In this document: one piece after another, positions 2,201 through 23,964 of the stretch
How the letters are laid out: each line of letters begins with the position of its first letter
How positions within the stretch are numbered: position 1 is the stretch's first letter
Source of the DNA: a virus
DNA: 25,835 nt
Virus record (IMG/VR): IMGVR_UViG_3300027905_000635
Location: 1-25,835 of that record
Reading direction: 5' to 3' (one strand)
Notes under the pieces: model-generated
Told to the model about the DNA's origin: nothing
What the model saw: the letters and a program-made list of their open reading frames with translations, nothing else
The model's database searches: none
Program-made: the position numbers and the translations under genes

Positions 2201-2226
2201 GGGTCGGAAACCCGGGTTTCCGACCC
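2201..2226. repeat. Palindrome copy 1 (26-bp perfect form)
   Basis: This is the longest of seven copies: the 18-bp core CGGAAACCCGGGTTTCCG extended by GGGT/ACCC arms. It begins at the base after the stop codon of the preceding gene and ends 11-13 bases before the -10 box of the candidate small RNA. Confidence 0.9.
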
Positions 2227-2237
2227 GGCGACCGCGG

Positions 2238-2245
2238 CATATAAG
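2238..2245 (+). promoter_or_regulatory. Candidate -10 region of the small RNA
   Basis: CATATAAG followed by GGGGG is A/T-rich in a GC-rich region and resembles the CATGATGGGG signals found elsewhere in the window. A start about 7 bases on falls at 2249-2251, the first base of the closing stem of the RNA. Confidence 0.5.
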
Positions 2246-2248
2246 GGG

Positions 2249-2323
2249 GTGCGGCGCGCGCCGCGACCGGCCGAGGGGGTGCCCCCCCGCTCCCTCGCCA
2301 CCTCGGCGCGCGCCGCGCTTTTT
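2249..2323 (+). ncRNA. Candidate compact structured RNA (about 75 nt) ending in a terminator
   Basis: Bases 2249-2263 pair with 2304-2318 in an uninterrupted 15-bp helix (one G-U pair), followed at once by TTTTT (2319-2323). Inside it, CGAGGG (2272-2277) pairs with CCCTCG (2292-2297). A -10-like box sits just upstream, so promoter, fold and terminator delimit one short transcript. No open frame of note lies in it. The alternative is a large-loop Rho-independent terminator or attenuator ahead of the transglycosylase gene at 2350. Both readings accept the terminator; only the independent transcript is inference. Confidence 0.5.
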
Positions 2324-2349
2324 CACCTGACGGGGAAAGGAGTCTCGAC

Positions 2350-2823
2350 ATGACCTTCATCCGCTGGATCGCCTGGGCCATGCTCTCGATGTTCCCGTGC
2401 TCGAGTCCGTCCCGCATCGCGGGCGAGTACCGGGTCGTGGCGACGGCGATCTCTCGGGCGACGCCGAGCCCCTCGGACGCGGCGGACCTCGCCAGCGTCG
2501 CGAGCTACGAGAGCGGCTACGACGTGCGCGCGGTCGGTCGGAAGGGCGAGGTGGGCGCGTGGCAGCTCATGCCGCCGGTAGCCTGCGAGTCGGTGCGCAG
2601 GGACGGAGCGAACGCCCAGCGGGCGGTGGACTGCCAGGCTCGGGAGGCGCTCCGGCGCTGGAAGGAGCAGGCGCCGTGCGGGTACACCGGGGAGATGGGC
2701 CGCACCTGGGCGAGCGCCGAGGCGACGGACTGCCCGATGGCTCGCCGCCGAATGAACCGCGCGACGGCCTGGGTCGCCCAGCACCCGTTCGAGCCCGTCG
2801 CGACCTCGTCGCCTGACAGCTGA
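2350..2823 (+). CDS. Lytic transglycosylase-like lipoprotein
   Basis: This 157-residue protein has an N-terminal hydrophobic stretch (IRWIAWAMLSMFPC), so it may be exported and lipidated on Cys17, although the lipobox is atypical. Residues 47-75 match the SLT/goose-lysozyme-like core: ASYESGYD with catalytic-type E54, then VGAWQLMP, equivalent to the G-x-x-Q-x-x-P motif. Later Cys residues (in VACES, VDCQA, APCGY, TDCPM) could form disulfides in an exported protein. It would cleave peptidoglycan during entry or lysis. A clear Shine-Dalgarno sequence (GGGGAAAGGAG) precedes the ATG, unlike many neighbours. It stands alone between the U-tract terminator at 2323 and the next promoter at 2836. Confidence 0.68.
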   Translation: MTFIRWIAWAMLSMFPCSSPSRIAGEYRVVATAISRATPSPSDAADLASVASYESGYDVRAVGRKGEVGAWQLMPPVACESVRRDGANAQRAVDCQAREALRRWKEQAPCGYTGEMGRTWASAEATDCPMARRRMNRATAWVAQHPFEPVATSSPDS

Positions 2824-2835
2824 CCTTCCCCCTGC

Positions 2836-2916
2836 TAGCGTTCCGATCGTCTCCTCTTGGTCGGGGAGCGGCGTGTGGATTCAGGCAGGCTGAGCGCCCG
2901 GGCGACCCCCGGGCGT
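2836..2916 (+). promoter_or_regulatory. Promoter and 5' leader hairpin for the papain-like protease gene
   Basis: TAGCGT at 2836-2841 is a candidate -10 box. The roughly 90-base leader contains a hairpin in which 2895-2902 (CGCCCGGG) pairs with 2908-2915 (CCCGGGCG), 8 bp with a 5-base loop. It sits 9 bases upstream of the Shine-Dalgarno GGAGG and may tune translation or stabilise the message. Confidence 0.4.
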
Positions 2917-2935
2917 TCGTCTCTGGAGGTCGGAG

Positions 2936-3850
2936 ATGGGCGAGTCGGTGATCCTCCTCGGGCGCGGCCTCAAGCAGAAGGACTCGGCGACGGCGCTCTT
3001 CTCGCTGACGCGCAGGTCGGTCGGCGAGCACGAGGGGATCGCGGCGCGGCTCAAGACCCTGAAGGGGAGCGCCGACTGGACCCCCTGCGTCCGCTCGGTC
3101 CTGAACCAGGGCGTCAGCGAGACGTGCTGGGCGCACTCGGCGGCGCAGGCGAAGTTCATCGTCGACGTCGCGAAGCTCGTCGCGGCGGGCACGCCCCTCG
3201 CGGACGCGATCGCGAAGGTCGTCCTCGCCTCCCCGCTCTACTTCGCGCTCGTCCTCTACGCGCTCTACCGCGCGGCGCAGACGCCCCCGGGCGTGCCGCT
3301 GCCGGGGCCGGGGCTCGCGGACCAGGGGGCGCAGCTCGACGACGCGGCGGCCGCGTTCGGCAGGTTCGGCTCCCAGCCGTTCGGAGAGCAGCAGCAGGGC
3401 ATCAACACCGACGTCCCGGCGACTCAGGACGAGAACGGCGATCCGGTCCTCCTCCCGGAGCTCTCCGTCCCGGCGGCCGAGTCGGGCTTCGCCCAACCGT
3501 TCGGGGGGAGCTACGACGTCCAGACGGGGAGCGGCGCCGGCGACCGCGTCGCGGCCGCGCTCGAGGCGGTCGGCCCGGTCTGGTTCGGCACGAGCGTCGG
3601 GCAGGCGTTCCAGGCGCTCGTCGCCGGGCAGGTCGCGCAGCCGTGCCCCGCGAGCGACCCGACGGCGGGCGGGCACGCGATGCTCTACGCCGGCTATGAG
3701 GCGGTCCCCGTGAACGGGACGCTGACCCGGCGCTACCGGGTGCTCAACAGCTGGGGATCCGACTTCTGCGAGGGTGGGTACTGTTGGGCTTCTGAAGCAT
3801 TCGTCGAGGCCAACTGGCAGATCGTGCCCTTCGAGGACCAGACGCTATGA
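2936..3850 (+). CDS. Papain-like (C1A) cysteine peptidase
   Basis: This 304-residue protein keeps every active-site element of the papain family: oxyanion Q58 in VLNQGVSETCWAHS, nucleophile C64, base H247 in GGHAMLYAGY, and N271 in RVLNSWGSDF, followed by GGYCWAS. A helix with SPLYFALVLYALYR and the later 'DQGAQLDDA' segment match the usual order in bacterial members. The segment of about 90 residues before the His strand is Pro/Gly/Gln-rich and probably a surface loop. No signal peptide or long prodomain is visible; the 50 residues before the Q58 region are short for a propeptide. It could process a virion protein or act on host surface proteins. Translation starts behind GGAGGTCGGAG. It is translationally coupled (ATGA) to the lipoprotein at 3847. 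Confidence 0.85.
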   Translation: MGESVILLGRGLKQKDSATALFSLTRRSVGEHEGIAARLKTLKGSADWTPCVRSVLNQGVSETCWAHSAAQAKFIVDVAKLVAAGTPLADAIAKVVLASPLYFALVLYALYRAAQTPPGVPLPGPGLADQGAQLDDAAAAFGRFGSQPFGEQQQGINTDVPATQDENGDPVLLPELSVPAAESGFAQPFGGSYDVQTGSGAGDRVAAALEAVGPVWFGTSVGQAFQALVAGQVAQPCPASDPTAGGHAMLYAGYEAVPVNGTLTRRYRVLNSWGSDFCEGGYCWASEAFVEANWQIVPFEDQTL

Positions 3851-4056
3851 ATCTCCGAACCATCATCGCGCTCGTCGTCGTGCTCGCGTACCTGACGGCG
3901 TGCCCGACGCCGTCCCCGCTCCCCGTCCCGGACGTCGTGATCACGACGAGCGACTCCAGCTCCCCGAAGGACCCCTGCGCGGCCGCGGACGCGATCAGCC
4001 AGGCCCGGCTGATCCGCGGCGACGGCGGGATGCCGCTCGTCGTGCCCTGCCCGTAG
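3847..4056 (+). CDS. Small proline-rich lipoprotein (Rz1-like)
   Basis: This 69-residue protein begins MNLRTIIALVVVLAYLTAC, a textbook signal peptide with lipobox LTAC (Cys19). The mature part starts with a Pro-rich stretch (CPTPSPLPVPD), the composition typical of Rz1-type outer-membrane spanins. The start overlaps the stop of the protease gene (ATGA), and a membrane-protein gene follows 2 bases after its stop. That supports a lysis or envelope role in a Gram-negative host, but no matching inner-membrane spanin with a long coiled coil is adjacent, so the function stays a proposal. Confidence 0.7.
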   Translation: MNLRTIIALVVVLAYLTACPTPSPLPVPDVVITTSDSSSPKDPCAAADAISQARLIRGDGGMPLVVPCP

Positions 4057-4058
4057 CG

Positions 4059-4367
4059 ATGGCGTCCTTCGCCTGGATGTCGAGCCCGCAGTACCTAGCC
4101 CAGGTCGGCCACGGGTTCGGCGCGTGCTCCGTCGTCCTGACCGCCGCGCTCTTCTCGCTCGCGCTCGGCGCCGGCTGGGCCCCGATCCTCGTCGTGCTCG
4201 GGGCCGGGATCGCGCTCGCGGCGCTCAAGGAGTTCGTCTTCGACGTCGCGAGCTGGGGCGAGGGCGACTCCTGGGCGGACAGCGCGATGGACTTCGGCTT
4301 CTACGTGCTCGGCGCCGCCGTCGGGACGGGGCTCGCCGCGCTCGCGCTGCACCTCGCGCCTCGGTAG
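4059..4367 (+). CDS. Small integral membrane protein
   Basis: This 102-residue protein has two to three hydrophobic segments: about residues 20-33 (CSVVLTAALFSLAL), 37-50 (APILVVLGAGIALA) and 78-97 (FYVLGAAVGTGLAALALHL). Between the second and third lie KEFVFD and an acidic loop (WGEGDSWADS). The pattern 'GHGF... KEF.FD ... DF.FY.LG' is, as far as I recall, seen in uncharacterised phage membrane proteins. It could be a holin or part of the lysis group with the preceding lipoprotein. The ATG at 4059 follows the preceding stop after two bases with no ribosome site, so translation is presumably coupled. Confidence 0.65.
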   Translation: MASFAWMSSPQYLAQVGHGFGACSVVLTAALFSLALGAGWAPILVVLGAGIALAALKEFVFDVASWGEGDSWADSAMDFGFYVLGAAVGTGLAALALHLAPR

Positions 4368-4369
4368 GG

Positions 4370-4453
4370 CATGATGGGGGCGGCCCCGCCGGGGGTGCCT
4401 CTCAGCCCTTCAGCGGGGGAGCTCCCGGCGGGGTACACCGTTCGTGGTAGCTT
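4370..4453 (+). promoter_or_regulatory. Two candidate promoters and leader upstream of 4478
   Basis: CATGATGGGGG (CATGAT at 4370-4375) matches the repeated CATGAT signal, and TAGCTT (4448-4453, in GTGGTAGCTTCG) matches the element before 21833. The second gives a leader of about 18 bases carrying GGAGG. Between them lies a GC-rich stem-forming stretch. The 110-base gap holds only a 36-codon frame (4371-4481) that I do not call a gene. Confidence 0.42.
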
Positions 4454-4477
4454 CGCGTCCGGAGGCAACGGAGCGTC

Positions 4478-5059
4478 ATGAACATCGTCGTCTGGGACCC
4501 CGCGGGGGAGTGGTGGGAGGGGGCGCTGGTGCCGGAGCCGGAGCAGGCGCGCGAGCTCGCTCGACGGGGGGCCTGCCTGCTGCCGGTCGTCCCGCAGCTG
4601 CTGAGCGCCGCGAGCGACGCGGGTTTCTTCAAGCGGGCGTGGGGGAAGGGCGTCGCGCTCGCGACGGGCGGCCCGATGCCGCTCTGCCCGCTCGGGCTCT
4701 ACGCGGTGCACGACATGCACTACCTCCATTGGGCCGCGCGCCTCGTCCCGACCGCCGACGTCGAGCGGCGGGAGGACGGCTCGCACAAGCTCGTCGGGAT
4801 GCTCGCGCTCGTCCCGGACGGGACGCAGCGGGGCGGCTTCCAGGCGCAGCTCGAGGGGGCGGACCGGAGCCGGGTCGACCTCTCCCTGCTCGGCCCCCCG
4901 GACGAGGCGGGCGGCTGGACGGTCGGGGGCTACGCGCGCGTCCGGCAGATGAACGACGCGAAGGTCTGCGTCTGCCTGCACGGCGCGGCGATGGGGGCGA
5001 GGGCGCAGCTGAGAGTGGCGTGGGCGGCGGTCACCCAGACCGCGAGCCCGGAGGGCTGA
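4478..5059 (+). CDS. Hypothetical phage protein (193 aa)
   Basis: I do not recognise this 193-residue protein. It begins MNIVVWDPAGEWWEGALV, has a hydrophobic middle (LCPLGLYAVHDMHYLHWAARLVP) and a Gly-rich C-terminal half with short strands (WTVGGYARVRQ). There is no signal peptide. Shine-Dalgarno GGAGG lies 14 bases ahead, a somewhat long spacing; the TAGCTT element precedes it. It is followed after 4 bases by another unknown gene, with fibre-like proteins downstream, so a virion accessory role is plausible but unproven. Confidence 0.6.
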   Translation: MNIVVWDPAGEWWEGALVPEPEQARELARRGACLLPVVPQLLSAASDAGFFKRAWGKGVALATGGPMPLCPLGLYAVHDMHYLHWAARLVPTADVERREDGSHKLVGMLALVPDGTQRGGFQAQLEGADRSRVDLSLLGPPDEAGGWTVGGYARVRQMNDAKVCVCLHGAAMGARAQLRVAWAAVTQTASPEG

Positions 5060-5063
5060 ACCG

Positions 5064-5621
5064 ATGCAGTTCGCGATCCAGTGGCTCAGGACCACGTCGG
5101 AGTCGGGGCCGATCCCGGAGCTCGGCGACGATGTCGACCCGACGACGGCGTACGGGACGCCGGGGACCCCGCCGGGGGCCTACAAGGCGAACACGCCGAA
5201 CCAGGACAACGTCCTGTTCATGCGTCCTTACTCGAAGACCGGGATCCCCTACCGGCGCGTCGCGATCGCGGCGACGGGGCCGAGCAGCCCGGACGCGGCG
5301 CGGACGGCGACCCTCTACGCCTGGGACGCGCTCACCGGGCACTGGTACATCGTCGGGACGAAGAGCGGGATCTCGCTGACGTACAACACGATCACGATGG
5401 TCACGATCCCGACCATCGGGGACGTTCCTCCGTCGTCGACGACGACGGGGACGCAGTCGATGCCGTCGGCGCTCCAGCCGCAGGGGCGGAGCGCGGGGGG
5501 CTCGCTCCAGGCGGACCCGGGCGGGCTCGCGCTGATGCTCAACGTCGACGCGAACGGGAGCCCGACGACGGGGACCTACCAGTTCGCGATGTCGCCGAGC
5601 TTCTCCGCCGACGTGACGTAG
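5064..5621 (+). CDS. Hypothetical protein, probable virion component
   Basis: This 185-residue protein begins MQFAIQWLRT. It is rich in Thr, Ser, Pro and Gly with alternating strand-like segments (YRRVAIAATG, ATLYAWDA, HWYIVGTKSG) and a low-complexity Ser/Thr run after about residue 117, typical of phage surface or fibre proteins. I recognise no family. It starts 4 bases after the preceding stop with no ribosome site and ends at palindrome copy 2, whose first base is the last base of the stop codon. Confidence 0.6.
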   Translation: MQFAIQWLRTTSESGPIPELGDDVDPTTAYGTPGTPPGAYKANTPNQDNVLFMRPYSKTGIPYRRVAIAATGPSSPDAARTATLYAWDALTGHWYIVGTKSGISLTYNTITMVTIPTIGDVPPSSTTTGTQSMPSALQPQGRSAGGSLQADPGGLALMLNVDANGSPTTGTYQFAMSPSFSADVT

Positions 5622-5642
5622 TCGGAAACCCGGGTTTCCGAC
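5621..5642. repeat. Palindrome copy 2 (22 bp)
   Basis: GTCGG...CCGAC around the 18-bp core. Its first base is the last base of the TAG stop. It is followed by a second palindrome, CCCGGGCCCGGG (5643-5654), and by a -10 box 33 bases downstream. Confidence 0.9.
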
Positions 5643-5675
5643 CCGGGCCCGGGTGCGGCGCCGGGGGGGTGCTGA

Positions 5676-5681
5676 TAGGTT
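5676..5681 (+). promoter_or_regulatory. Candidate -10 box, leaderless gene at 5688
   Basis: TAGGTT lies 6 bases before the GTG at 5688, and no Shine-Dalgarno sequence is present. This is one of the clean cases where the hexamer does not overlap a stop codon. Confidence 0.5.
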
Positions 5682-5687
5682 CGGCAC

Positions 5688-6485
5688 GTGTCCGTCAGCT
5701 GCCTCGTCAAGTTCGTCCAAGGGCTGACCGTCGGGACCCCCGGGGTCGCCCTGATCGGGGCGACGGGGACCTCGGTGACGGTCTCGAACGGGGGGACGAA
5801 CCCGGCGCCGGACCCGGGGACCTGGACCTTCGACGTGCTCGGGGTGCCGAGCTCGAGCTCCGTCCCGACGGGGGTGGTGCAGACCGGGCCGACCCCGACG
5901 TGGAACTTCACCCCGGACGTGCCCGGCTGCTACGTCGTCTCGCTGACGGTCGTCGACGACACGACCGGGGCCGCGAGCACGGACGTCCGGGCGTTCGGGA
6001 TCTACACGTCGCTCGGGGCGCCGTACCTGATCCCGGCCTTCACGGGGGACGACAAGAGCCTGAACTTCGGCTCGCAGACGACCGGCTGGGACGTCTACAT
6101 GGAGGCGTGGCTGAACCTCCTGCTCGCGCTCGCGACGGGGGCGGTCCCGGCGAACATCGTGAACGTCGTCGCGCCGGGGACGATCGCGGCCGCGCCGGGC
6201 GCGCGCTACTACGTCGACCTCGGGGTCGCCGGCGGGGACGTGACGTTTACGACGGCGGGGAGCATCGGGGCGAGGCAGAGCTTCTTCGTGAAGCTCGTCG
6301 ACCCCACCGGGGTCGGGACGGGCGGGCACAAGGTGACGGTCGAGCCGATCGTCGCCGGGCTCCACGTCGAGTCGCGCGCCTTCCCCGGGACGCTGAACGC
6401 CCTCGACTCGGCGAGCTACCTGATGACCGTGCTCGGCGACGAGGTCGAGCTGGAGAGCAACGATGGAACGAACCTCTGGGCATAG
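5688..6485 (+). CDS. PKD-like domain protein, probable tail/fibre component
   Basis: This 265-residue protein has an N-terminal Ig/PKD-like fold: a turn around GGTNPAPDPGTWTFDV, then WNFTPDVPGCYVVSLTVVDD, the typical 'Tp G.Y.v.LtV.d' strand pair, over about residues 20-105. The C-terminal half carries a hydrophobic helix (WLNLLLALATGAV) and a strand-rich region with ARYYVDLG and QSFFVKLVD. PKD-like domains are common in phage tail and adhesin proteins that contact sugars or proteins. It is leaderless with a GTG start. Its 3' end overlaps the next gene by 23 bases. Confidence 0.66.
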   Translation: MSVSCLVKFVQGLTVGTPGVALIGATGTSVTVSNGGTNPAPDPGTWTFDVLGVPSSSSVPTGVVQTGPTPTWNFTPDVPGCYVVSLTVVDDTTGAASTDVRAFGIYTSLGAPYLIPAFTGDDKSLNFGSQTTGWDVYMEAWLNLLLALATGAVPANIVNVVAPGTIAAAPGARYYVDLGVAGGDVTFTTAGSIGARQSFFVKLVDPTGVGTGGHKVTVEPIVAGLHVESRAFPGTLNALDSASYLMTVLGDEVELESNDGTNLWA

Positions 6486-8967
6486 GGCGATCGTCGCCGC
6501 GCTCGCGGCATCCCTCCTCGGGGGGGCGCTCGCGCTCGGCTGCCCGTCGCCGTCGAAGGGCGGGCCGGACGCGGGGCAGGCGCCGACCGCCGCGGGCTCC
6601 GACGCGGGGGCTCCGCAGAAGCTCGGCACCGGCAACGTCTTCCCGGTCTGGATCAACGACGGGAGCGCGGGCTTCACCCCCCGGATGACGATGCCCGCGT
6701 CCGCCTCCGGCGGCGGTCTGATCGTGGACGGCTCGGCGCCGACCTTCAGCTTCTACGTGAACAAGGGCGGCTCCGACGCGAACCTCTGCAGCCTGCTCTC
6801 GCCGTGCCTGACGATCGCGCGCGCGGAGAGCCTCGTGAAGGGGCTCTCCGGGCTCGGTCTGGTCGAGACCGGCGCGGGCTACGACACGGCGGTCCAGTAC
6901 GCCGAGATCTTCCTGGGCCCGGGCAACTACCAGGAGGTCGTTCCCGCGCTCCCGTGGCTCTACGTCGTGGCGCAGGACATCGCGGGCACGAGCGGCATCC
7001 AGGGCGTGAGCATCGACCCGAGCTACTACCTCACGTCGGGCGTGACCTTCTCCGGCTTCACCGGGCTCCTCATCGGAGGCGACTTCCCCGATGGCGGACG
7101 CCCACCCGACTCCGTGCTCGACTTCAATGCTGGCGGGCATGCAATCCCAGAGGGCGAGGTCAATTTCCAGCAGTGCTCATTCGCAACGAACCTCACGGCG
7201 ACCGCGGCGGGGACATCGAACACCGAGGCGGTCACATTTACCGCGAGCTACTTCTACACCACGAATTTCTCCGCGGTCGGCGTCTACGTCTTCTCGTCGA
7301 AGAGCACGTTCGGCAGCGTCTCATGCGCGTCAACGTCGACGAACCAATGTGGCTGGCAGTCGCAGCAGGACACCATCAGCTTCGGGAGCACCCCGAGCGT
7401 CTTCGACTCCACGGCGGGGCAGATCGTCAGCGCGTACATGGTCGACACCGCCGTGGACTGCGCGTCGGGCGGCATCACGCTGACGGGCTCTCTGACGACC
7501 TACTCGGCGACCGCGGGGGGCATCCCCCCGCCCTGGTGCGTCACGCTCACGCCGTTCGACGGCGGGGTCCCCGCGCTCGTCCCGCTCACGGGCATCAACA
7601 CGCTCTCGACGGACGGTGGGACGATCGGGCAGGTCGCGACGATCTGCGACGCGGGCGCCGGGGTGCTCCCGGTGTGGTGCCCTCAGTCGGTCGAGGCGGG
7701 ATCGTCCTTCGACGCGAACACGCTGAGCATCACGGGCGGGGTGGCCTGCACCTTCTCCGGCGGGGTCTGTGCGTCGACCTGCACGGGGGCGACGGGCAGC
7801 ACGCTCGGGTGCGTGCAGCTGGCGGGCGACCTGCAGGCGGGGACCGCGTCGTCGCCCCAGGTAGGCGGGCTCTGCGGCAGCGAGATCATCTGCCAGGCGA
7901 CGGGCGAGCTGCGGTGGTCGAGCGGGGCGACGGCGATGACGCTCGATGCCGTGTCGACTTCGGCCACACCGGGCGTGGATCTGAGGCTCAAGGGTCAAGT
8001 ATCCACGGCTAACCCCGGGACGAGTGGAAACGTTGTAGCCGTCCTGACTCCTCCAGTGGGGGCCGGCTCTGAAGCCCACGTCTACATCGATCGAACGCTA
8101 GGGACGCACTACTTCGCGTTCGGTGCGTATCCCGGCTTCGAGAGTTCGGATGGGGCTTTCTGGATTGGGGCTCCCCTGACGCTCGATGCAGCCCACATCT
8201 TCGGATACTCGAATGGGACCGATTCGCGGATCAACGGGTCGGCGTCGGCAGGATTCACGCTCTCCGGCATCAACGCGCTTCTTGCGACTTTTTCCACGAG
8301 CGAGGTCGGCGTAGCCGCCGGTTTCAACTTCAACATTGGCGCAACGAGTGGCTCCTATGGCGGCGGCGTTGGCGTGCTCGGCCTCCACAACGCCGGGACG
8401 AACCCGACGACGGTTCCCACCGCCGAAGGCGTCGTCTGGGAGGGTCTTACGGGGGATGGGCTCCACGGTACAGGGCCCAGCGGGGCTGGGTACTTCAATG
8501 ACTGGATGTTCTCTCCTACGGCGAGCCCGAGCCCCGGGAACACCGCGCTCAATACACAAGCCACGCTAGTTCACGTCCCGCACGTCGGATACGCGAGGAC
8601 GTCTACGACGGCCGCAGTCGCCGTCTACAACTTCCCGCTCGCCTCGGGTCACGCGGTCGGCGTCCACGCCTACTGCACGGGGCGCCTGACCGCGAACGGG
8701 TCCGGGTGTTCGGGCTCGTGCCTCACGGGCGGATCGGTCTACGAGGAAGCTATCACCATGTTCACCAACGTCTCCGGGACGCTGACCCAGGGGAACGACA
8801 CTATCGGCGGATCTGGGGCCCCTGTCGCCCAGAGCGCGATCTCGTCGCTCGTCCCGGCTATCACGTTCACCAACCCGAGCACGAACCTCGTTCAGCTCAA
8901 CGTCGCCCAGACGAACGGCACGACCGCCGTGGACTGGACGTGTTGGGACGAGAGTACGTTCGACTGA
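6463..8967 (+). CDS. Large lipobox-bearing beta-helix fibre/adhesin-like protein
   Basis: This 834-residue protein begins with a basic n-region, the hydrophobic stretch AIVAALAASLLGGALALGC (Cys27 lipobox) and then an Asp-Ala-Gly-rich linker (GGPDAGQAP, GSDAGAP). Around residue 90 comes FYVNKGGSDANLC, then SPCLTIARA, the start typical of secreted right-handed beta-helix proteins, followed by long Ser/Thr/Gly-rich strand repeats. The C-terminal 250 residues look like a separate fibre tip. Bases about 7120-7400 and 7960-8600 are visibly less GC-rich with different codon choice, suggesting patchwork exchange. A virion fibre with a lipoprotein signal is unusual; it may be placed on the host surface instead. 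The ATG lies 23 bases inside the previous gene. Confidence 0.68.
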   Translation: MERTSGHRAIVAALAASLLGGALALGCPSPSKGGPDAGQAPTAAGSDAGAPQKLGTGNVFPVWINDGSAGFTPRMTMPASASGGGLIVDGSAPTFSFYVNKGGSDANLCSLLSPCLTIARAESLVKGLSGLGLVETGAGYDTAVQYAEIFLGPGNYQEVVPALPWLYVVAQDIAGTSGIQGVSIDPSYYLTSGVTFSGFTGLLIGGDFPDGGRPPDSVLDFNAGGHAIPEGEVNFQQCSFATNLTATAAGTSNTEAVTFTASYFYTTNFSAVGVYVFSSKSTFGSVSCASTSTNQCGWQSQQDTISFGSTPSVFDSTAGQIVSAYMVDTAVDCASGGITLTGSLTTYSATAGGIPPPWCVTLTPFDGGVPALVPLTGINTLSTDGGTIGQVATICDAGAGVLPVWCPQSVEAGSSFDANTLSITGGVACTFSGGVCASTCTGATGSTLGCVQLAGDLQAGTASSPQVGGLCGSEIICQATGELRWSSGATAMTLDAVSTSATPGVDLRLKGQVSTANPGTSGNVVAVLTPPVGAGSEAHVYIDRTLGTHYFAFGAYPGFESSDGAFWIGAPLTLDAAHIFGYSNGTDSRINGSASAGFTLSGINALLATFSTSEVGVAAGFNFNIGATSGSYGGGVGVLGLHNAGTNPTTVPTAEGVVWEGLTGDGLHGTGPSGAGYFNDWMFSPTASPSPGNTALNTQATLVHVPHVGYARTSTTAAVAVYNFPLASGHAVGVHAYCTGRLTANGSGCSGSCLTGGSVYEEAITMFTNVSGTLTQGNDTIGGSGAPVAQSAISSLVPAITFTNPSTNLVQLNVAQTNGTTAVDWTCWDESTFD

Positions 8968-9146
8968 TGCTCTCCCGCGCCCACATCGCCCTCGACGCGA
9001 CGCTCCTGCTCCTGCTCCTCGCGGACGGCGCGGATCAGCGGTTCTTCGCGGTAGCGATCCCGTGGTCGCTCTGGACGCTGTGGGTGGTCCTCGATGGAGC
9101 TCGGCAGCGGCGCGAGACGGAGCGCAGAGAGGACGCGGTGCGATGA
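8967..9146 (+). CDS. Small two-segment membrane protein (holin-like)
   Basis: This 59-residue protein has a first hydrophobic segment at about residues 7-20 (IALDATLLLLLLAD), a short loop (GADQR), a second at about 26-44 (FFAVAIPWSLWTLWVVLDG) and a charged, Arg/Glu-rich C-terminal tail (RQRRETERRED). The pattern fits a small class II-type holin or a membrane accessory. The ATG overlaps the fibre gene's stop (TGATG) and its own stop overlaps the next ATG (ATGA), so it sits in a tightly coupled string with a lipoprotein and a coiled-coil protein. Confidence 0.6.
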   Translation: MLSRAHIALDATLLLLLLADGADQRFFAVAIPWSLWTLWVVLDGARQRRETERREDAVR

Positions 9147-10077: not shown

Positions 10078-10081
10078 GGGT

Positions 10082-10099
10082 CGGAAACCCGGGTTTCCG
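10082..10099. repeat. Palindrome copy 3 (18-bp core)
   Basis: The core is exact. The left arm keeps GGGT but the right arm changes to GGTAGGGT, so it abuts the -10-like TAGGGT of the portal gene with a single base between. Confidence 0.9.
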
Positions 10100-10100
10100 G

Positions 10101-14292: not shown

Positions 14293-15300
14293 ATGCCCGT
14301 CGACGTGCTGAGAGACGCCCTCGCGGCGAGCCGGCAGCAGGCGCTCGACGTCGCGGAGACGACGGGGAGGCGCGCTCTTCTTCGGGTGCTCCGCCGGTCG
14401 GAGGGGGAGCTCGCGGCGCGGGTCCACCAGGCGGAGGGGCTCCGGGGGGCCGGGGCGACGACGTTCACGGAGGCGAGGATGCGGGCGACGCTCGCTCAGG
14501 TCCGGGAGGTCGTCCGCGGGCTCGAGGACGACCTAGGGCGCGTCCTCGCCGACCAGGCGGGGGACGTCGCCTACGAGGCGGGGAAGGGCGCCCTGGGCTA
14601 CCTGCGGGCCGCGGAGGGGGCGTTCCGGGGGGTCGGGGCGGCGCCGCTCGCGATCCGGGAGGCGATGATGCTCGACGCGGCGACGGCGGGGGCGCGGGCG
14701 AGCCTGCTCCGGCGGCTGGCGGGGGAGGGCGAGCCGGGGGTGCTCGCGCGCTACGGGGAGGCGACGATCGGGGAGTTCGAGCGGGTGCTCCAGCAGGGGG
14801 TGGCGCAGGCGAAGCCGTTCAACGAAGTGAGGGCGGGGCTGATCGAGAGCTCCCCCTTCCTGCGGGGGGCGCCGGCGAGCTGGGCGGAGCGGATCGCGAG
14901 GACGGAGCTGCACGGGGCGAGCTCGCGGGCGGCGCACGAGACGCACAAGGCGGCGCAGCGGGAGCTCGGGGACGTCGTCCGGATCGTGAGCGCGACCTTC
15001 GACGATCGGACGGGCTGGGACAGCTACAACGTCCACGGGGAGGTGCGGCGGGTCTCCGAGCCGTTCGAGTACGTGACGTACGACGGGGAGCACGAGGCGT
15101 TCATGCACCCGCCGAACAGGCCGAACGACAGGGAGATCGTGCTCGTGCATCGCCTCTCGTGGGGTCCTCCTCCCCCGATGCTCCGGCCGAAGAGCACGGG
15201 GGAGGTTCGGGCGCGCGCGGCGCGCGACGGGGTGAAGGACTTCCCCGGGCGGCCGCGCGTGATGTCGACGGTCCCCGGCTCTCGGTTCGTCGCGGGCTGA
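14293..15300 (+). CDS. Minor head / head morphogenesis protein (Mu F, SPP1 gp7-like)
   Basis: This 335-residue protein has a helical N-terminal two-thirds and a C-terminal domain with the Mu F-type signature. RIARTELHGASSRAAHE (equivalent to 'R TE ... A') is followed by VSATFDDRTGWDSYNVHGEV and then the HPPNRPNDREIVLVHRLSW region. Family members usually show 'HP.CRC'; here the Cys residues are missing and Asn/Asp stand in their place. In SPP1 and relatives this protein binds the portal and enters the head in few copies. It ends at palindrome copy 4. Confidence 0.8.
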   Translation: MPVDVLRDALAASRQQALDVAETTGRRALLRVLRRSEGELAARVHQAEGLRGAGATTFTEARMRATLAQVREVVRGLEDDLGRVLADQAGDVAYEAGKGALGYLRAAEGAFRGVGAAPLAIREAMMLDAATAGARASLLRRLAGEGEPGVLARYGEATIGEFERVLQQGVAQAKPFNEVRAGLIESSPFLRGAPASWAERIARTELHGASSRAAHETHKAAQRELGDVVRIVSATFDDRTGWDSYNVHGEVRRVSEPFEYVTYDGEHEAFMHPPNRPNDREIVLVHRLSWGPPPPMLRPKSTGEVRARAARDGVKDFPGRPRVMSTVPGSRFVAG

Positions 15301-15302
15301 GT

Positions 15303-15320
15303 CGGAAACCCGGGTTTCCG
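15303..15320. repeat. Palindrome copy 4 (18-bp core)
   Basis: Exact core with left arm GT directly after the TGA stop and right arm changed to GGTTCGG, resembling copy 3. The CATGAT box of the next gene starts 9 bases downstream. Confidence 0.9.
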
Positions 15321-16177: not shown

Positions 16178-16349
16178 GGAGACGATCCGGCATCCGTGCG
16201 GCTGCGTGCAGCAGCTCGTCTGGATCGCGGTCGGCGCCGGCGAGAGCGCGTGGGAGTGGGTGAAGGTCTGCCCGAAGCACCTCCGGGGGGAGTCGGAAAC
16301 CCGGGTTTCCGACCCGCTCGCCCTTGCGAGCCGGAGCACGCGCGCGTAG
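16170..16349 (+). CDS. Small Cys/His protein ending across palindrome copy 5
   Basis: This 59-residue protein starts with GTG 8 bases inside the DnaA-like gene. It contains HPCGC (residues 8-12), a hydrophobic stretch (LVWIAVGAG) and CPKH (residues 34-37): a C-x-C...C-x2-H arrangement that could bind zinc. The palindrome is read in frame as SETRVSDP at residues 42-49, then about ten more residues to TAG. The part after the palindrome is probably not conserved, as if the original stop was lost when the element arrived. No family recognised. Confidence 0.55.
   Translation: MDRETIRHPCGCVQQLVWIAVGAGESAWEWVKVCPKHLRGESETRVSDPLALASRSTRA
16292..16313. repeat. Palindrome copy 5 (22 bp)
   Basis: GTCGG...CCGAC form inside the 3' end of the small Cys/His gene, 48 bases before the next ATG (16361). 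A possible -10 (TAGTCC, 16347) lies 33 bases downstream, the same spacing as at copy 2. Confidence 0.9.
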
Positions 16350-16360
16350 TCCTCGGAGGC

Positions 16361-16702: not shown

Positions 16703-16709
16703 TCCGACC

Positions 16710-17087: not shown

Positions 17088-17088
17088 A

Positions 17089-17110
17089 GTCGGAAACCCG
17101 GGTTTCCGAC
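17089..17110. repeat. Palindrome copy 6 (22 bp)
   Basis: GTCGG...CCGAC one base after the TAG stop, 16 bases before the next ATG. No -10 box is evident between it and that start, but a Shine-Dalgarno (GAGGGAGACGAG) is present. Confidence 0.9.
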
Positions 17111-17126
17111 CCGAGGGAGACGAGCC

Positions 17127-17567: not shown

Positions 17568-17626
17568 GGTGACAGGCGGGGCCGCGCTGCTGTAGGAGTA
17601 ACGGGAACCCGAGGGAGAAGACGACC

Positions 17627-18424: not shown

Positions 18425-18434
18425 GCCCCCGAGA

Positions 18435-18453
18435 GGGCCCCGGAGCCGGGCCC
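18435..18453 (+). terminator. GC hairpin after 18424 (U-less, weak terminator candidate)
   Basis: GGGCCC (18435-18440) pairs with GGGCCC (18448-18453) across a 7-base loop, 11 bases after the stop. No U-tract follows. It may slow polymerase or only stabilise the upstream message. Confidence 0.3.
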
Positions 18454-18501
18454 GTCCTCGCGGAAGTCTGACGTCGGAGAGAGCAAGGGAGAGGCACGGA
18501 C

Positions 18502-19596
18502 ATGGGAGCAGCAGGAGAGGTCGTAGAGCAGCCCGCGAACCAGACGGGGGCCGCAGCGCCTCCTCCCCCGCCGCCCCCCGCGGCCGCGCCCCCCGCGAAG
18601 GCGGCCCCGCCGCCCCCCGCGGCCGCCGCTCCTCCGGTCGGAGCTCCCGCGGCGGTCCCGCCCCCGGCGAGCAGCGAGCCGCCGGCGGGGACGCCGGACG
18701 GGGCGAATCGGGTCTCCATCGACCTGCACGACCTCGGCAAGAGGATCGGGAAGGCGGAGAAGAAGACGCTGCGCGAGGTCGGCAAGATGCTCGGGCTGCC
18801 CGACTTCAAGAACGGGACGAGCCGCGAGGAGATGCGGAGCGTGCTCGGCGATAAGGTGAAGGCGCTCTCCGCGCTCGAGACGGCGGAGGCGGAGCGGCAG
18901 CGCGCGGCGCTGACGGAGAAGGAGCGCTTCGAGCTCGAGAAGCAGGAGGCGGAGCGGACGGCGCGGCACGCGACGCGGAGGATGGAGAAGGCGCTCGAGA
19001 AGCTCTCGGTGAAGCGCTGGGACTCGCGCGTGAAGAAGATCGCGGCCGGGCACGTCGCGGTCGGGCAGGTCGGGGAGGTCATCAAGATCCTCAAGACGGA
19101 GCTCCGGACCGACCGGCACCTGCGGCACCAGTTCCGGACGAGCGACAAGAAGAAGATCGCGCGCCGGCTCGACCGCTGGTTCGAGGCGAAGGCGAAGTCG
19201 AACCCGGCGTTCGCGAAGGACGGGGCGTCGCCTCCGGCGGCGGGCGCTCCCCCGCCCGCGGCGGCCCCCTCGGCGGCGGGCGCGGAGGACGTGGTCCAGA
19301 AGCTCTACCCGGGGAAGACGATGGTCGCCGGGAAGCCGAACAGCCTGACGGCGACGGAGGTGGCGGCGGTGCAGGCGCACCTCGCGCAGCCGCCCGCGGC
19401 GCCGGCGGGGCAGCCCATCACGAGCGGGGCTCCTCCGAACCCGAACCGGGTCTCGGCTCCTCCCGACGGGGCGTCGGGAGGGGACATCGTGCAGCGGCTC
19501 TTCCCGGGCAAGACGATGAAGGCGGGGCTGCCGAACAGCCTGACCTCGCAGGAGGTCGCCGAGGTCCAGCGGCACGTCCTCCGGGCGTCTCCGTAG
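18502..19596 (+). CDS. Probable scaffolding protein with C-terminal twin repeat
   Basis: This 364-residue protein sits directly upstream of the capsid gene. Residues 18-65 are almost only Pro and Ala. About 70-245 are charged helices, including a coiled coil (ALETAEAERQRAALTEKERF) and a very basic stretch (RTSDKKKIARRLDRW). After a second Pro/Ala linker come two related 33-residue units: 262-294, with LYPGKTMVAGKPNSLTATEV, and 327-359, with LFPGKTMKAGLPNSLTSQEV. Scaffolds guide capsid assembly and bind coat protein through C-terminal basic or helical tails; the twin units may be the coat-binding elements. Shine-Dalgarno AAGGGAGAGG is present. The scaffold call rests on position and composition. 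Confidence 0.65.
   Translation: MGAAGEVVEQPANQTGAAAPPPPPPPAAAPPAKAAPPPPAAAAPPVGAPAAVPPPASSEPPAGTPDGANRVSIDLHDLGKRIGKAEKKTLREVGKMLGLPDFKNGTSREEMRSVLGDKVKALSALETAEAERQRAALTEKERFELEKQEAERTARHATRRMEKALEKLSVKRWDSRVKKIAAGHVAVGQVGEVIKILKTELRTDRHLRHQFRTSDKKKIARRLDRWFEAKAKSNPAFAKDGASPPAAGAPPPAAAPSAAGAEDVVQKLYPGKTMVAGKPNSLTATEVAAVQAHLAQPPAAPAGQPITSGAPPNPNRVSAPPDGASGGDIVQRLFPGKTMKAGLPNSLTSQEVAEVQRHVLRASP
19285..19578 (+). repeat. Internal duplication in the scaffold gene (19285-19383 and 19480-19578)
   Basis: Two 99-base units encode 33-residue copies that agree at about 20 positions, with the shared core PGKTM-AG-PNSLT--EVA-VQ-H. A Pro/Ala linker separates them. Codon differences show the duplication is not recent. 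Confidence 0.75.
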
Positions 19597-19617
19597 GCTC
19601 CGCCGGTTCGTCGGGGC

Positions 19618-19647
19618 TTGACGGGCTCGGCGCGGCGCGCGCATCCT
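19618..19647 (+). promoter_or_regulatory. Candidate promoter with -35 and -10 for the capsid gene
   Basis: TTGACG (19618-19623), an 18-base spacer and CATCCT (19642-19647) form the only sigma70-style pair I can see with a recognisable -35. The start near 19654 gives a leader of about 137 bases. Confidence 0.5.
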
Positions 19648-19710
19648 GGGCGCCAGCGTAAGAGCACGACCCCCAACACCGCGACCACGGCGGGCGGCAT
19701 CCAGCAGCGT

Positions 19711-19784
19711 GGGACTCCGGGGAGAGTGATCGACGAAGCGAGGCGAAGAGCCTCCGACCGCGATCCCACCCGATCAGGAGTCCC
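19711..19784 (+). promoter_or_regulatory. Structured 5' leader that can hide the capsid ribosome site
   Basis: GGGACTCC (19711-19718) pairs with GGAGTCCC (19777-19784), TGATCG (19727-19732) pairs with CGATCA (19771-19776), and GAGGC (19740-19744) pairs with GCCTC (19750-19754). The first helix contains the Shine-Dalgarno GGAG. This suggests translational control of the major capsid protein. Confidence 0.45.
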
Positions 19785-19790
19785 CCCACC

Positions 19791-21203
19791 ATGGCTCAAG
19801 GCGTCATCCTCGGCATCCCCCCGTCGATCGTGCAGCTCGTGCAGACGGGGCTCCTCGAGCGCTCGTTCCACGACGCCCTCTTCCCGGCGCTGCTCTACCG
19901 CTCCGAGGCGATGGCCGAGGAGTGGCCGGCGCACACGGGCGTGCAGAGCATCGAGACGCGCCCGTCGCTGCTCGCGGTCAACACGACGCCGCTCCAGCCG
20001 GGGCAGGACCCGACGCCGCAGGCGCTGCAGTACGAGCAGTGGTTCGTGAACCTCTCCCGCTACGGGGACGGGATCGACACGCACATGCCGACGAGCGTCT
20101 GGTCGAACGCGGACCAGTTCATGCGAAACCTCCAGCAGCTCGGGCTGCAGGCGGGGCAGAAGGTCAATCGGCTCGCGAGGGACCCGATCTTCCAGGCGTA
20201 CGTCGGGGGGCAGACGCTCTCGACGGCGGCGGCGCTCTCGACGGACGCGGTGCTCCAGGTCGCGTCGCTGAACGGGTTCACGACGGTCGTGCAGACGGGG
20301 TCGACGGTCCGCCCGGTGCCGGTCAGCGCGCAGAACCCGCTGCCGATCACGATCGTGCTCTCGCCGACGAGCACGCTCAGCGCGATGGTGGTCGGGGTCC
20401 AGCCGTTCTACCCGAGCGACCCGCTGAACGGCCCCGGCACGCTGATCCTCGCGGCGCAGCTCGGCGGCGCGGGGTTCGCGGCGCGGACGCCGGTCTACTC
20501 GAACAACGCCCCGGTCGTGATCCGCGCCAGCGGCGGGAACAGCATCGACGCGATCTCGAACGCCGACATCGTGACGATGCAGGACTTCCTGAACGCGGTG
20601 ACCGTGCTCCGGTCGAACAACGTCCAGCCGCACGAGGACGGCTTCTACCACGCGCACGTGCAGCCCTCGGTCGCCGCGCAGCTCTTCGCGGACCCGGCGT
20701 TCCAGCGGCTCTACACGGCGCTGCCGCAGTCCGAGACGTTCGTGAACGGCTTCCCCGTGCCGATGCTCGGGATCAAGTTCTTCATGAACACGGAGAGCCC
20801 GACGCCGACGAACACGGGGAGCCAGGTCGTGACGGTCGCCGGGCAGTCGGCGACGTACGCGCAGGGGCTCGGCTCGGAGATCGTCAACTACACCGGGGTG
20901 CAGATCGCGCAGACGCTCATCACGGGGCGGGGCGCGATGTACGAGCGCTGGGTGAACGAGAACCAGTACATCTCCGAGGCGGGGGTGACCGGGAAGGTCG
21001 GCGAGTTCGACGTCGTCAACCAGGGCATCAGCATCCAGACGGACCGGATCCGGCTGGTCATCGCGAGCCCGATCGACCGCCTGCAGGACATGGTGCGCGC
21101 GACCTGGTCGCTGTCGACGTGCTTCCCGATCCCGACGGACCTCGGGGCGACGACGAGCACGGCGCTCTACAAGCGCGCCGTGGTGCTGCAGTCCGCGGCC
21201 TAG
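19791..21203 (+). CDS. Major capsid protein
   Basis: This 470-residue protein lies just after the scaffold gene, has its own promoter-like region and the size of a HK97-fold coat protein. The C-terminal half shows the coat-type run DGFYHAHVQPSVAAQLF, NGFPVPMLGIKFFMNTES and a closing domain ending KRAVVLQSAA. This resembles N4-gp56/P22-like coat families ('haHihP...; G.ipvlGi.f..tt'). The N-terminal part is helical around residues 100-135 (NADQFMRNLQQLGLQAGQK). It has no obvious prodomain and the window has no prohead protease, so assembly probably depends on the separate scaffold. Shine-Dalgarno AGGAG, 10 bases from ATG, sits within a leader stem. Confidence 0.78.
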   Translation: MAQGVILGIPPSIVQLVQTGLLERSFHDALFPALLYRSEAMAEEWPAHTGVQSIETRPSLLAVNTTPLQPGQDPTPQALQYEQWFVNLSRYGDGIDTHMPTSVWSNADQFMRNLQQLGLQAGQKVNRLARDPIFQAYVGGQTLSTAAALSTDAVLQVASLNGFTTVVQTGSTVRPVPVSAQNPLPITIVLSPTSTLSAMVVGVQPFYPSDPLNGPGTLILAAQLGGAGFAARTPVYSNNAPVVIRASGGNSIDAISNADIVTMQDFLNAVTVLRSNNVQPHEDGFYHAHVQPSVAAQLFADPAFQRLYTALPQSETFVNGFPVPMLGIKFFMNTESPTPTNTGSQVVTVAGQSATYAQGLGSEIVNYTGVQIAQTLITGRGAMYERWVNENQYISEAGVTGKVGEFDVVNQGISIQTDRIRLVIASPIDRLQDMVRATWSLSTCFPIPTDLGATTSTALYKRAVVLQSAA

Positions 21204-21812: not shown

Positions 21813-21832
21813 CGGGGTCGGAGGACGGAGCC

Positions 21833-22249
21833 ATGCCGAGAGCGACGAGGGAGCAGCAGGCGCAGGAGCGGGAGCGGGAGCGGGAGCGGGGCGGGGAGAG
21901 CGGGGACCCGAGGGAGCTGGAGGTGCTGACGGGGTCGGGGATGAACGGGGGGCCGCGCCAGCCGCTGCCGCCGCTCCAGCAGCCGCCCCCGCTGATGCGC
22001 CGGTCGGAGGAGCTCCGGCAGGCGTACGAGGCGGAGCGGCAGGAGCAGGTCGACGCGCTCCCGACGCCGAAGCGGTACCGGGTGACGAAGCTCCCGCGCG
22101 AGGACGGGAAGGTGGTCGGCCGGGACGGGCGGAGCTTCAAGCTGACGGAGGGCAAGGAGCTCGACGAGCGCTACTTCGACGTGCCGGGGCTGAAGAAGCA
22201 GGGGGTGAAGTTCGAGCTCGTGAAGGACGAGGAGGGGCCGACGGCCTGA
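21833..22249 (+). CDS. Hypothetical protein after the capsid gene (138 aa)
   Basis: This 138-residue protein has a charged N-terminus (EQQAQERERERERGG), a Pro/Gln-rich middle and a compact C-terminal part: KRYRVTKLPREDGKVV, GRSFKLTEGKELDERYFDV, LKKQGVKFELV. The C-terminal part recalls small phage proteins encoded after the capsid gene, but I cannot assign it. Shine-Dalgarno GGAGG is 11 bases before the ATG at 21833. It could be a head completion or internal protein. Confidence 0.6.
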   Translation: MPRATREQQAQERERERERGGESGDPRELEVLTGSGMNGGPRQPLPPLQQPPPLMRRSEELRQAYEAERQEQVDALPTPKRYRVTKLPREDGKVVGRDGRSFKLTEGKELDERYFDVPGLKKQGVKFELVKDEEGPTA

Positions 22250-22261
22250 GCCCGCCCGGGG

Positions 22262-22267
22262 CATGAT
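22262..22267 (+). promoter_or_regulatory. CATGATGGGG-type leaderless promoter
   Basis: CATGAT, then GGGGGGC (7 bases), then the ATG at 22275. The ATGs at 22263 and 22266 belong to the box itself. Confidence 0.5.
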
Positions 22268-22274
22268 GGGGGGC

Positions 22275-23078
22275 ATGAGCACCTACGAGTGGCGGCGGTG
22301 CGCGGCGGTCTCGCGCGAGGGTCGGGCGGCGTTCCTGAACGCGGCGGACGCGGAGGGTCTGGAGTACGTCGCCGGGCTCGAGGGCGGGACGAGCGGGGAC
22401 TTCACGATGGGGGAGCAGCGCGACGTGCTCTTCCGCCGGCGGGGCTCTCCCGGGCTCGTGCGGGGGGCGACCGCGATGGTCGTCCTGGACGGGAACTTCC
22501 TGGCGCACGTCCCGCTGCCGGGCATCGAGGCGGAGGGCGGGCCGCCGCACCGGGTGGACGTCTACGTCTGCGGGCCGGACGAGGTTCCGACGGTGGCGGC
22601 GAGCGTCGACGTGGTCGACGGGCGGGCGGTCGAGCCGCGGCGGGACGGGCGAAGGGCCCTCGCCGCCCGCATCCAGGAGGAGGTCGCGCGGGGGCTGGCG
22701 AGCTTCGCCGGGAAGCTGAACGACGAGGAGGTCCGCGGGCGGTTCGCTCGCGCCGCGGAGGAGCTCCTCCGCGGCGCGACGTTCGCGGACCAGCAGGAGA
22801 TCGACGCGGAGCGACGGAAGACGGCCGCGGAGATCGTGTGCGCGACGAAGCGCTCGGTCGTCGGGTTCGCCGACGCCGAGAAGCGGATCGCGGAGCTGGA
22901 GCAGTTCGCGATCAACTGGATCGAGACGGCGGCGCAGCACGCGAGCAACGAGGAGTACTGGCGCGGGCGCGCGCGGGAGGCGGAGGCGGCGCTCGCCGAC
23001 GCGGGCCGGGCGCCGACCTCCCCGGCCCCGCCGTCCTCCGGCGAGCTCGTCGGCCGGGACGAGGGCGGGCACCGATGA
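22275..23078 (+). CDS. Hypothetical protein (267 aa)
   Basis: This 267-residue protein begins MSTYEWRRCAAVSREGR. The N-terminal 120 residues are mixed strands and helices (AMVVLDGNFLAHVPLPG, HRVDVYVCGPDEV). The rest is long helix, including IQEEVARGLASFAGKLN and EKRIAELEQFAINWIE, likely coiled coil. It ends in a Pro/Ser-rich tail. No family recognised. It is coupled to the next gene by ATGA overlap. Confidence 0.6.
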   Translation: MSTYEWRRCAAVSREGRAAFLNAADAEGLEYVAGLEGGTSGDFTMGEQRDVLFRRRGSPGLVRGATAMVVLDGNFLAHVPLPGIEAEGGPPHRVDVYVCGPDEVPTVAASVDVVDGRAVEPRRDGRRALAARIQEEVARGLASFAGKLNDEEVRGRFARAAEELLRGATFADQQEIDAERRKTAAEIVCATKRSVVGFADAEKRIAELEQFAINWIETAAQHASNEEYWRGRAREAEAALADAGRAPTSPAPPSSGELVGRDEGGHR

Positions 23079-23479
23079 GCTGGCCGAAGGCCCCCGTCGC
23101 CGGGGACGCGGCGTCCCGGAAGATCCTCGCCGCGTCCGGGGCGGACCTCGGGGAGTTCGACGAGTCGGCGCTCGTCTCGTCGAAGACGAAGCGGTGGCGC
23201 CGGTGGTGCCCGGACGACGCGGCGGCCTCCGCGTGCGCGAGCTACGAGCGGTGCCGGGAGCTCGCGCCGGGCTTCCAGCTCCGAGGCTGGACCGAGGCCG
23301 GTCGCCCCCACCTCGCCTGGGACTGCGCGATCGGCGGGGAGCGCTACGGGTGCGCGGTCGTGATCGTCCTCGGGCCGAGCCTCCGGACCTACTCGAAGGC
23401 GTTCGACGTGCTCCTCCTTCAGGCGAGGATGAGCATCTGGACCGTCGCGTCGGGGCGGGCCGCGCGGAGGGCGTCGTGA
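23075..23479 (+). CDS. Hypothetical protein with several Cys (134 aa)
   Basis: This 134-residue protein begins MSWPKAPVAGDAASRK. It has a Trp/Cys-rich middle (RWRRWCPDDAAASACASYERC, slightly beyond residue 45), then LAWDCAIGGERYGC and a strand AVVIVLGPS. The Cys residues could bind metal. No family recognised. It overlaps both neighbours by four bases (ATGA before, GTGA after), so the three genes 22275-23964 form one translational unit. Confidence 0.58.
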   Translation: MSWPKAPVAGDAASRKILAASGADLGEFDESALVSSKTKRWRRWCPDDAAASACASYERCRELAPGFQLRGWTEAGRPHLAWDCAIGGERYGCAVVIVLGPSLRTYSKAFDVLLLQARMSIWTVASGRAARRAS

Positions 23480-23964
23480 CGCAGCAGCGTCCGGAGCCGA
23501 TCCTCGCGAACGCCGAGCAGCCGCCGTCGCAGCGCCCGCCGAAGCATTCCGCGCGGGAAGTCGTTTCGACCCCGATCGGCGACGACTGCGCGGCGTGCGG
23601 TCGGCACCACGGGAGCCAGGGGGAGGAGCTCTGGTGCATGCGCTCGGAGCTCGCCCGGCTCCGGGAGCTCGCTGCCCGCTTCGAGCCTGTCGTCCCGACG
23701 CCGGCGTCCTGCTCGTACCAGCACGTCCACGACCTGATCGAGGCGGTCCCGGCCGACCTGGAGTACTGGGCAGAACGGGGGAGCTGCCCGACGCTCTACT
23801 TCGACTCCCTGCAGGACGCCGCCCCCGAGAGCTGGGCGGCGTCGGAAACCCGGGTTTCCGACCCGGTGCTAGAGTCGGCGCATGACCGACCCCACGACGC
23901 CCCAGGACGCCCCGAAGCCCCCGAAGGGGGCGAGCCCCTCCCCGACCCCGACGAGCCCGTCTAA
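23476..23964 (+). CDS. Cys/His-cluster protein with C-terminus read through palindrome copy 7
   Basis: This 162-residue protein starts at GTG in a GTGA overlap. It contains DDCAACGRHH and then LWCMRSELARLREL, a C-x2-C-x2-HH...C cluster followed by a leucine-periodic helix. A second helix ends near YWAERGS. From residue 122 the palindrome is read in frame as SETRVSDP, and the remaining 30 residues are Pro/Asp/Glu-rich and overlap the next gene by 83 bases. That tail is probably not original; the true protein may have ended near ESWAA before the element arrived. Confidence 0.55.
   Translation: MTQQRPEPILANAEQPPSQRPPKHSAREVVSTPIGDDCAACGRHHGSQGEELWCMRSELARLRELAARFEPVVPTPASCSYQHVHDLIEAVPADLEYWAERGSCPTLYFDSLQDAAPESWAASETRVSDPVLESAHDRPHDAPGRPEAPEGGEPLPDPDEPV
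23841..23862. repeat. Palindrome copy 7 (22 bp)
   Basis: GTCGG...CCGAC form, ending 7 bases before the TAGAGT box of the leaderless gene at 23882. It lies within the 3' part of the preceding open frame, as does copy 5. Confidence 0.9.
23870..23875 (+). promoter_or_regulatory. Candidate -10 box, leaderless gene at 23882
   Basis: TAGAGT, then CGGCGC (6 bases), then ATG. No Shine-Dalgarno sequence and no stop-codon overlap. The palindrome covers the -35 region. Confidence 0.5.

Follow-up and report, generated by a model that had tools for sequence, protein, structure and literature searches.

In plasmid RK2, the ParB-family protein KorB represses transcription by acting on operators dispersed over the replicon (PMC11790492). 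ParB and Noc bind as homodimers to perfect palindromes, parS and NBS, that have a CpG centre (CACGTG and CCCGGG); interface residues outside the recognition helix contribute to recognition, and in Noc an arginine recognises a G:C pair close to the centre (PMC7383237). The stoperators of Cluster A mycobacteriophages are 13 bp long, asymmetric and one-oriented, and are bound by a monomeric lysogeny repressor (PMC6550527, PMC9283540). In Bacillus phage SPbeta, the recombinase-fold prophage repressor MrpR binds SPBRE, a 15-bp motif present at about ten promoter sites (PMC10516654). Here we describe a perfect palindrome that occurs seven times in 25,835 nucleotides of viral DNA (IMG/VR record IMGVR_UViG_3300027905_000635, positions 1 to 25,835; hereafter the window), together with its counterparts in related phages.

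The palindromes are not terminators and are not peculiar to the window. Many members of the phage family carry a long perfect palindrome of their own, which differs in sequence between phages and is homogeneous within each. Sequence comparison suggests that these are probably the genome-wide operators of a phage homodimer with a DNA-binding domain of the ParB/Noc/KorB type, in which a SAP-like N-terminus and a zinc ribbon take the place of the CTPase domain. Binding of the palindromes by this ParB-like protein is predicted with good confidence, and the chances that it acts on transcription as a KorB-like global regulator, with an adjoining sigma-region-2 protein, are about even. In the mechanism we propose, the ParB-like homodimer of each phage would dock on its own set of palindromes, placed every few kilobases and mostly at gene junctions, and with the neighbouring sigma-region-2 protein would regulate transcription of the adjacent genes. 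The site set and its reader would change in step; sequence comparison shows that the innermost bases of the site co-vary with one residue in the last helix of the protein's DNA-binding domain.

Palindromes in the window and in related phages

The 18-mer CGGAAACCCGGGTTTCCG has exactly seven copies in the window and no further copy within 3 mismatches, where shuffled sequences give a mean of 0.02 matches even at three mismatches. The copies are perfect palindromes of 18-26 bp, flanked on the left always by GT and on the right by variable bases. They are listed below with their counterparts in the closest relative, G001, whose capsid protein is 82% identical.

2201..2226, no strand: site 1, 26 bp, GGGTCGGAAACCCGGGTTTCCGACCC, directly after the stop codon at 2198-2200; same junction in G001, with TGG..CCA arms
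5621..5642, no strand: site 2, 22 bp, overlapping the last base of a TAG stop; same junction in G001
10082..10099, no strand: site 3, 18 bp, flanked by a stop at 10077 and by the portal start at 10119, with TAGGGT at 10101; no counterpart at the G001 portal gene
15303..15320, no strand: site 4, 18 bp, behind the head-morphogenesis gene (14293-15300) and its stop; same junction in G001
16292..16313, no strand: site 5, 22 bp, near an open-frame end; G001 counterpart by gene order only
17089..17110, no strand: site 6, 22 bp, flanked by a stop at 17087 and by a start at 17127; same junction in G001
23841..23862, no strand: site 7, 22 bp, its centre 31 bp before a start at 23882, with TAGAGT at 23870; same junction in G001

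Five of the seven copies come after a stop codon at a distance of a few bases at most, and the other two, the 18-mers at 16294 and 23843, fall close to an open-frame end or within it. None of the copies in the window has a T-run behind it, a terminator scan of positions 1-20000 picks none of the sites there, and the window has no Rfam match. The initial annotation, which had reported the seven copies, their usual extension to 22-26 bp, their division between stop codons and open-frame ends and the lack of a U-tract behind them, is borne out in these respects.

When the window is compared with G001, five of the seven sites align by flanking sequence and a sixth by gene order, and at every aligned G001 site both arms have changed, from CGG...CCG to TGG...CCA. 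Concerted symmetric changes, and sites that are phage-specific but uniform within a genome, point to a trans-acting homodimeric DNA-binding protein. They argue for sites that would be recognised as double-stranded DNA by a symmetric protein, with the whole set following that protein.

Inverted repeats directly after stop codons might also act at the RNA or single-strand level, as terminators, as RNA hairpins or as promoters of the N4 type, short hairpins that a virion RNA polymerase reads as single strands. This is very improbable, because the arms change symmetrically, because imperfect copies show 82 one-sided changes against 3 complementary ones, the kind that would have spoken for a terminator, and because asymmetric hybrid sites persist in G034, a relative with mixed half-sites of the form GGG[A/T]TTCC. 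The palindrome centre is C|G in nearly all versions, so that the would-be loop bases are self-complementary; this disfavours a hairpin promoter for a phage RNA polymerase, one of the candidates put forward earlier. Nor do the copies, lacking a T-run and a match in Rfam, agree with the description of an intrinsic terminator, a GC-rich stem and U-tract in which structure is conserved over sequence. The earlier preference for a dimeric DNA-binding protein over a terminator is thus strongly supported by the uniformity within genomes, the self-complementary centre, the concerted symmetric changes and the scarcity of compensatory ones.

The family was assembled as 80 relatives fetched from IMG/VR by the capsid protein, and near-full-length records are roughly 77-100 kb. 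Sites in the relatives are perfect palindromes of 16-28 bp, with 14-30 exact copies in most near-full-length genomes (to 34 with a mismatch) and 14-16 in two 40 kb stretches. The palindrome of G001, TTGGAAACCCGGGTTTCCAA, has 18 exact copies and 20 with one mismatch; that of G004, TGGAACTCGAGTTCCA, has 24 copies; that of G006, CCGCAACACGTGTTGCGG, has 30 exact copies and 34 with one mismatch. Very different versions occur in G026 (AATCCAATTGGATCGATCCAATTGGATT) and G033 (GAGATAACACCGGTGTTATCTC). Fewer copies than in most near-full-length genomes are present in G034 and in G028, which has an odd-centred set, and the 60 kb record G015 holds 9 copies of a 10-bp core. Because each relative uses a different sequence, a count of the exact 18-mer finds it in no other IMG/VR record, although the relatives carry palindromes of their own. 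None were seen in G007, G012, G016, G027, G037, G038, G039, G041 and G042.

Other repeated elements were observed in several of these genomes. G032 and G022 each have a second repeated palindrome, TGTCTAGACA (13 times) and CGCGTACGCG (13 times), respectively. The distant relative G042 (L114, L205-L209), which lacks genome-specific palindromes, has two copies of the canonical bacterial parS, TGTTTCACGTGAAACA, and G016 (L186-L190) has six copies of GGTTTCGGTTTATG behind TTGACT-like boxes.

A ParB-like candidate and its co-variation with the sites

The candidate binder belongs to a family of proteins of about 315-480 amino acids whose gene, in the genomes examined, lies between, and next to, those of a sigma-region-2 protein and a family-B DNA polymerase (polB). 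All 18 palindrome-positive genomes of 77 kb or more have it, as does 1 of the 7 negative genomes of 67 kb or more (Fisher p 4e-5, without a correction for kinship). A protein with a ParB-type domain is absent from the binders suggested in the initial annotation. The candidate has a SAP-like N-terminus (Ku70, E 0.014), a CxxC zinc ribbon and then a helical domain; an N-terminal CTP-binding ParB_N domain, or CTPase domain, was not recognised in it. The best match of the full model is Spo0J on parS (4umk, probability 0.90, E 0.26), and a model of the domain (pLDDT 96) matches the Spo0J 1vz0 chains with probabilities of 0.23-0.63 (E 2.6). Among Pfam families, HTH_ParB is found in one member (E 7e-4) and DUF3102 in 6 of 18. 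Since the same family returns repeatedly while single E-values are weak, these models give a weak but specific indication of a putative ParB-type helix-turn-helix domain.

In nearly all members with a ParB-like gene, the gene for the sigma-region-2 protein is its immediate neighbour, as at L017:3563-4231 (G001), L027:3362-4012 (G006) and L026:2194-2913 (G004); region 2 alone was recognised in the two that were scanned. Proteins with a ParB_N domain (PF02195) were also considered as binders and rejected: the matches in G001 and G006 are other proteins, with no matching helix-turn-helix, and none exceeded the threshold in G004.

When about 40 conserved families were ranked for co-variation with the sites, the candidate came first for the inner site and second for the outer site; a whole-protein Mantel test was not decisive. 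The key column, residue 307 of G006_8, is where the last helix of the DNA-binding domain begins, and from helix order it would correspond to alpha-8. In the discovery set this residue is Arg or Lys in 6 of 6 genomes with GGG sites and in 0 of 11 others, the GAT genomes having Leu, Val or Tyr. The column was found by scanning, as second of 11,040 columns, and replication was therefore needed. Among 12 genomes outside the discovery set, Arg or Lys occurs in 4 of 5 GGG genomes and in 0 of 7 others (Fisher p 0.01, permutation p 0.015), which brings the combined count to 10 of 11 with GGG and 0 of 18 otherwise. The best polymerase columns fail to replicate in the new genomes.

On the polymerase tree, GGG changes about nine times and Arg/Lys about eight, and in a Pagel-type test the dependent model beats the independent one (LR 30.8, p 3e-6). 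The clearest switches are G034, which has GGG and Arg within a GAT clade, and G036, which has GAT and Val beside GGG relatives. This replicated, tree-tested co-variation suggests that specificity is set by interface residues of the candidate. We predict that the ParB-like protein of the window phage itself, encoded elsewhere in its genome, has Arg or Lys at the key position.

The same comparison bears on a set of small Fis-type (HTH_8) proteins whose genes adjoin that of the primase; these are improbable binders. They are found at the primase locus in most palindrome-positive genomes and were not found there in G038, G039, G041 and G042. Against them, they show no co-variation with the site (z about 0), which places them far down the ranking, and their recognition helices differ between G001 and G017 though the sites of these two are identical over 20 bp. 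The HTH_8 proteins that follow the primase gene are usually paired, with two domains in one protein in G006 (L017:11018-11454, L025:17536-17932, L031:10987-11514).

Placement of the sites and the possible role of the candidate binder

By our own simple gene caller, 43-93% of copies are intergenic in 21 records against 6-31% expected, or about 75% against about 10% overall, in keeping with the junction role first proposed for the sites rather than a random distribution. The distance from stop codon to centre peaks at 10-15 bp in these records, and that from centre to start codon at 20-35 bp. It had been noted that no copy lies inside the body of a gene; this is roughly true of the window, but in the relatives about a quarter of copies are inside called genes. 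Downstream of the palindromes, and not upstream, -10-like hexamers (CATGAT, TAAGCT, CATAGT, GGCATAA) occur at 12-30 bp in G001, G020, G022, G026 and G036. We favour a role in transcription only slightly over one in genome organisation, because of the placement before starts, the downstream hexamers, the adjoining sigma-region-2 protein and the precedent of KorB.

The promoter-like motif GGCATNA was also seen to be enriched between genes in G001, G006, G022, G026 and G028, where it is often, though not always, near a palindrome. A fixed spacing of palindrome to -10 element was considered and holds only partly: where the two are near each other, the motif is mostly downstream of the palindrome, by 10-30 bp, but sometimes upstream, by 18-28 bp, and it is often found by itself.

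With the same binder, the network of sites might instead organise the genome in the manner of parS and Noc sites, by spreading, segregation, condensation or packaging. We regard this as possible, though somewhat less likely. Copies occur about every 3-6 kb over the whole genome, in most genomes with a spacing more regular than chance would give, the junctions that are used change from one distant relative to another, and the candidate has a ParB/Noc-type fold; the copies inside called genes also fit this explanation. Opposed to it are the strong tendency of the copies to sit in the gap immediately ahead of a start codon and the hexamers on the downstream side, as well as a ParA-type ATPase (PF13614) not found in 25 genomes and the CTPase domain not recognised in the candidate.

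A further explanation depends on the lifestyle of the phages. The window, a 25.8 kb linear virus record, contains portal, head-morphogenesis and major capsid genes and is thus a fragment of a tailed-phage genome.

10119..11861, plus strand: portal protein gene (PHROG 64, E 3e-9), which marks a tailed phage
14293..15300, plus strand: head-morphogenesis gene (PHROG 3517, E 1.7e-5)
19791..21203, plus strand: major capsid protein gene (PHROG 1357, E 3.5e-18), the query for the family search

The family consists of uncultured tailed phages of about 85-100 kb. Its capsid protein was found in 1 of 84,980 bacterial and archaeal genomes, on a stand-alone contig of ~103 kb in a Methylocystis bin. Within the limits used, no cultured phage was found to match the candidate regulator or the family polymerase, and no repeated palindromes were seen in 50 kb of each of the named phages Kromp and phiKX1, whose capsid identity is 28-30%. 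The phages of the family look virulent from their gene content, because neither a tyrosine integrase (PF00589) nor a ParA-type ATPase was found in 25 records and a serine recombinase (PF00239) is present in only 1 of 19 records searched, the palindrome-negative G016.

For these reasons it is unlikely, though less remotely so than a terminator or hairpin, that the palindromes are stoperator-like sites of a prophage-silencing immunity repressor, as in mycobacteriophage L5, and this early suggestion finds little support. Copy number is similar to that of Cluster A phages, which have as many as 30 sites (PMC6550527), and both the placement at gene junctions and the genome-specific variants that track their own regulator would fit. 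Beyond the missing lysogeny genes and the near absence of the capsid from cellular genomes, stoperators are 13 bp, asymmetric and mostly of one orientation, whereas the sites of this family are perfect palindromes.

Several observations count against the palindromes being operators of the ParB-like protein. Conservation of junctions among distant relatives was looked for and not found, a poor fit to operators of fixed operons, and the candidate's gene, itself outside the window, has no evident autoregulatory site. G016 keeps the candidate and has no palindrome. The structural matches to ParB proteins are weak by E-value, and the gene calls and enrichment counts are limited by the simple caller. 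As the key column was second in its scan, its weight rests on replication, in which the sites of L276, L282, L296, L299 and G073 are defined by 2-3 copies. L306 has GGG with Thr, and G033 combines Phe with a G in second position.

Two other features of the window may be recorded here: an open frame at 222-884 resembles phage dual-specificity phosphatases (PHROG 10650, E 1.4e-8), and a lone 32-bp perfect palindrome, TCGCGCCGCGGAGGAGCTCCTCCGCGGCGCGA, is found within a gene at 22748-22779.

Significance and comparison with known systems

More than 20 protein-site pairs make the family a natural library, in which complete site sets appear to have been rewritten with their readers many times over. 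It makes directly testable the long-standing question of how a DNA-binding protein shifts its specificity when dozens of sites must shift too, and the mixed half-sites of G034 look like such a transition caught in progress. The pairs may also yield ParB-type DNA-binding modules that work independently of one another, for use in the laboratory. In uncultured phages, the results point to a genome-wide system, regulatory or organising, that has not been described before. More specifically, and with somewhat less than even confidence, we suggest that a CTPase-less ParB-domain protein and a sigma-region-2 protein, acting on 15-30 identical palindromes per genome, form a previously undescribed control system in which one fast-changing protein-DNA code would rule the entire genome of a virulent phage, the code being different in almost every phage.

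Among described systems, KorB and its OB operators on RK2 share with the candidate a ParB-family DNA-binding domain and sites dispersed over the replicon (PMC11790492). KorB, however, has a CTPase N-terminal domain and a partner, KorA, whereas the candidate carries a zinc ribbon and a SAP-like domain instead, its replicon is a phage, and its site varies among phages. ParB-parS and Noc-NBS are alike in their perfect palindrome with a CpG centre; they differ from the family described here, in which 15-30 copies lie at phage gene junctions, more than 20 distinct site sequences occur, no ParA was found and the CTPase domain was not recognised. Cluster A stoperators resemble the palindromes in having up to about 30 genome-specific sites per phage that vary with the regulator, but the sites of this family are palindromic and its phages are without a detected tyrosine integrase. 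SPBRE is likewise a repeated intergenic element of one phage, bound in SPbeta by one phage protein; unlike the candidate, that protein is a recombinase-fold repressor of a prophage, and its 15-bp sites are at about ten promoters.

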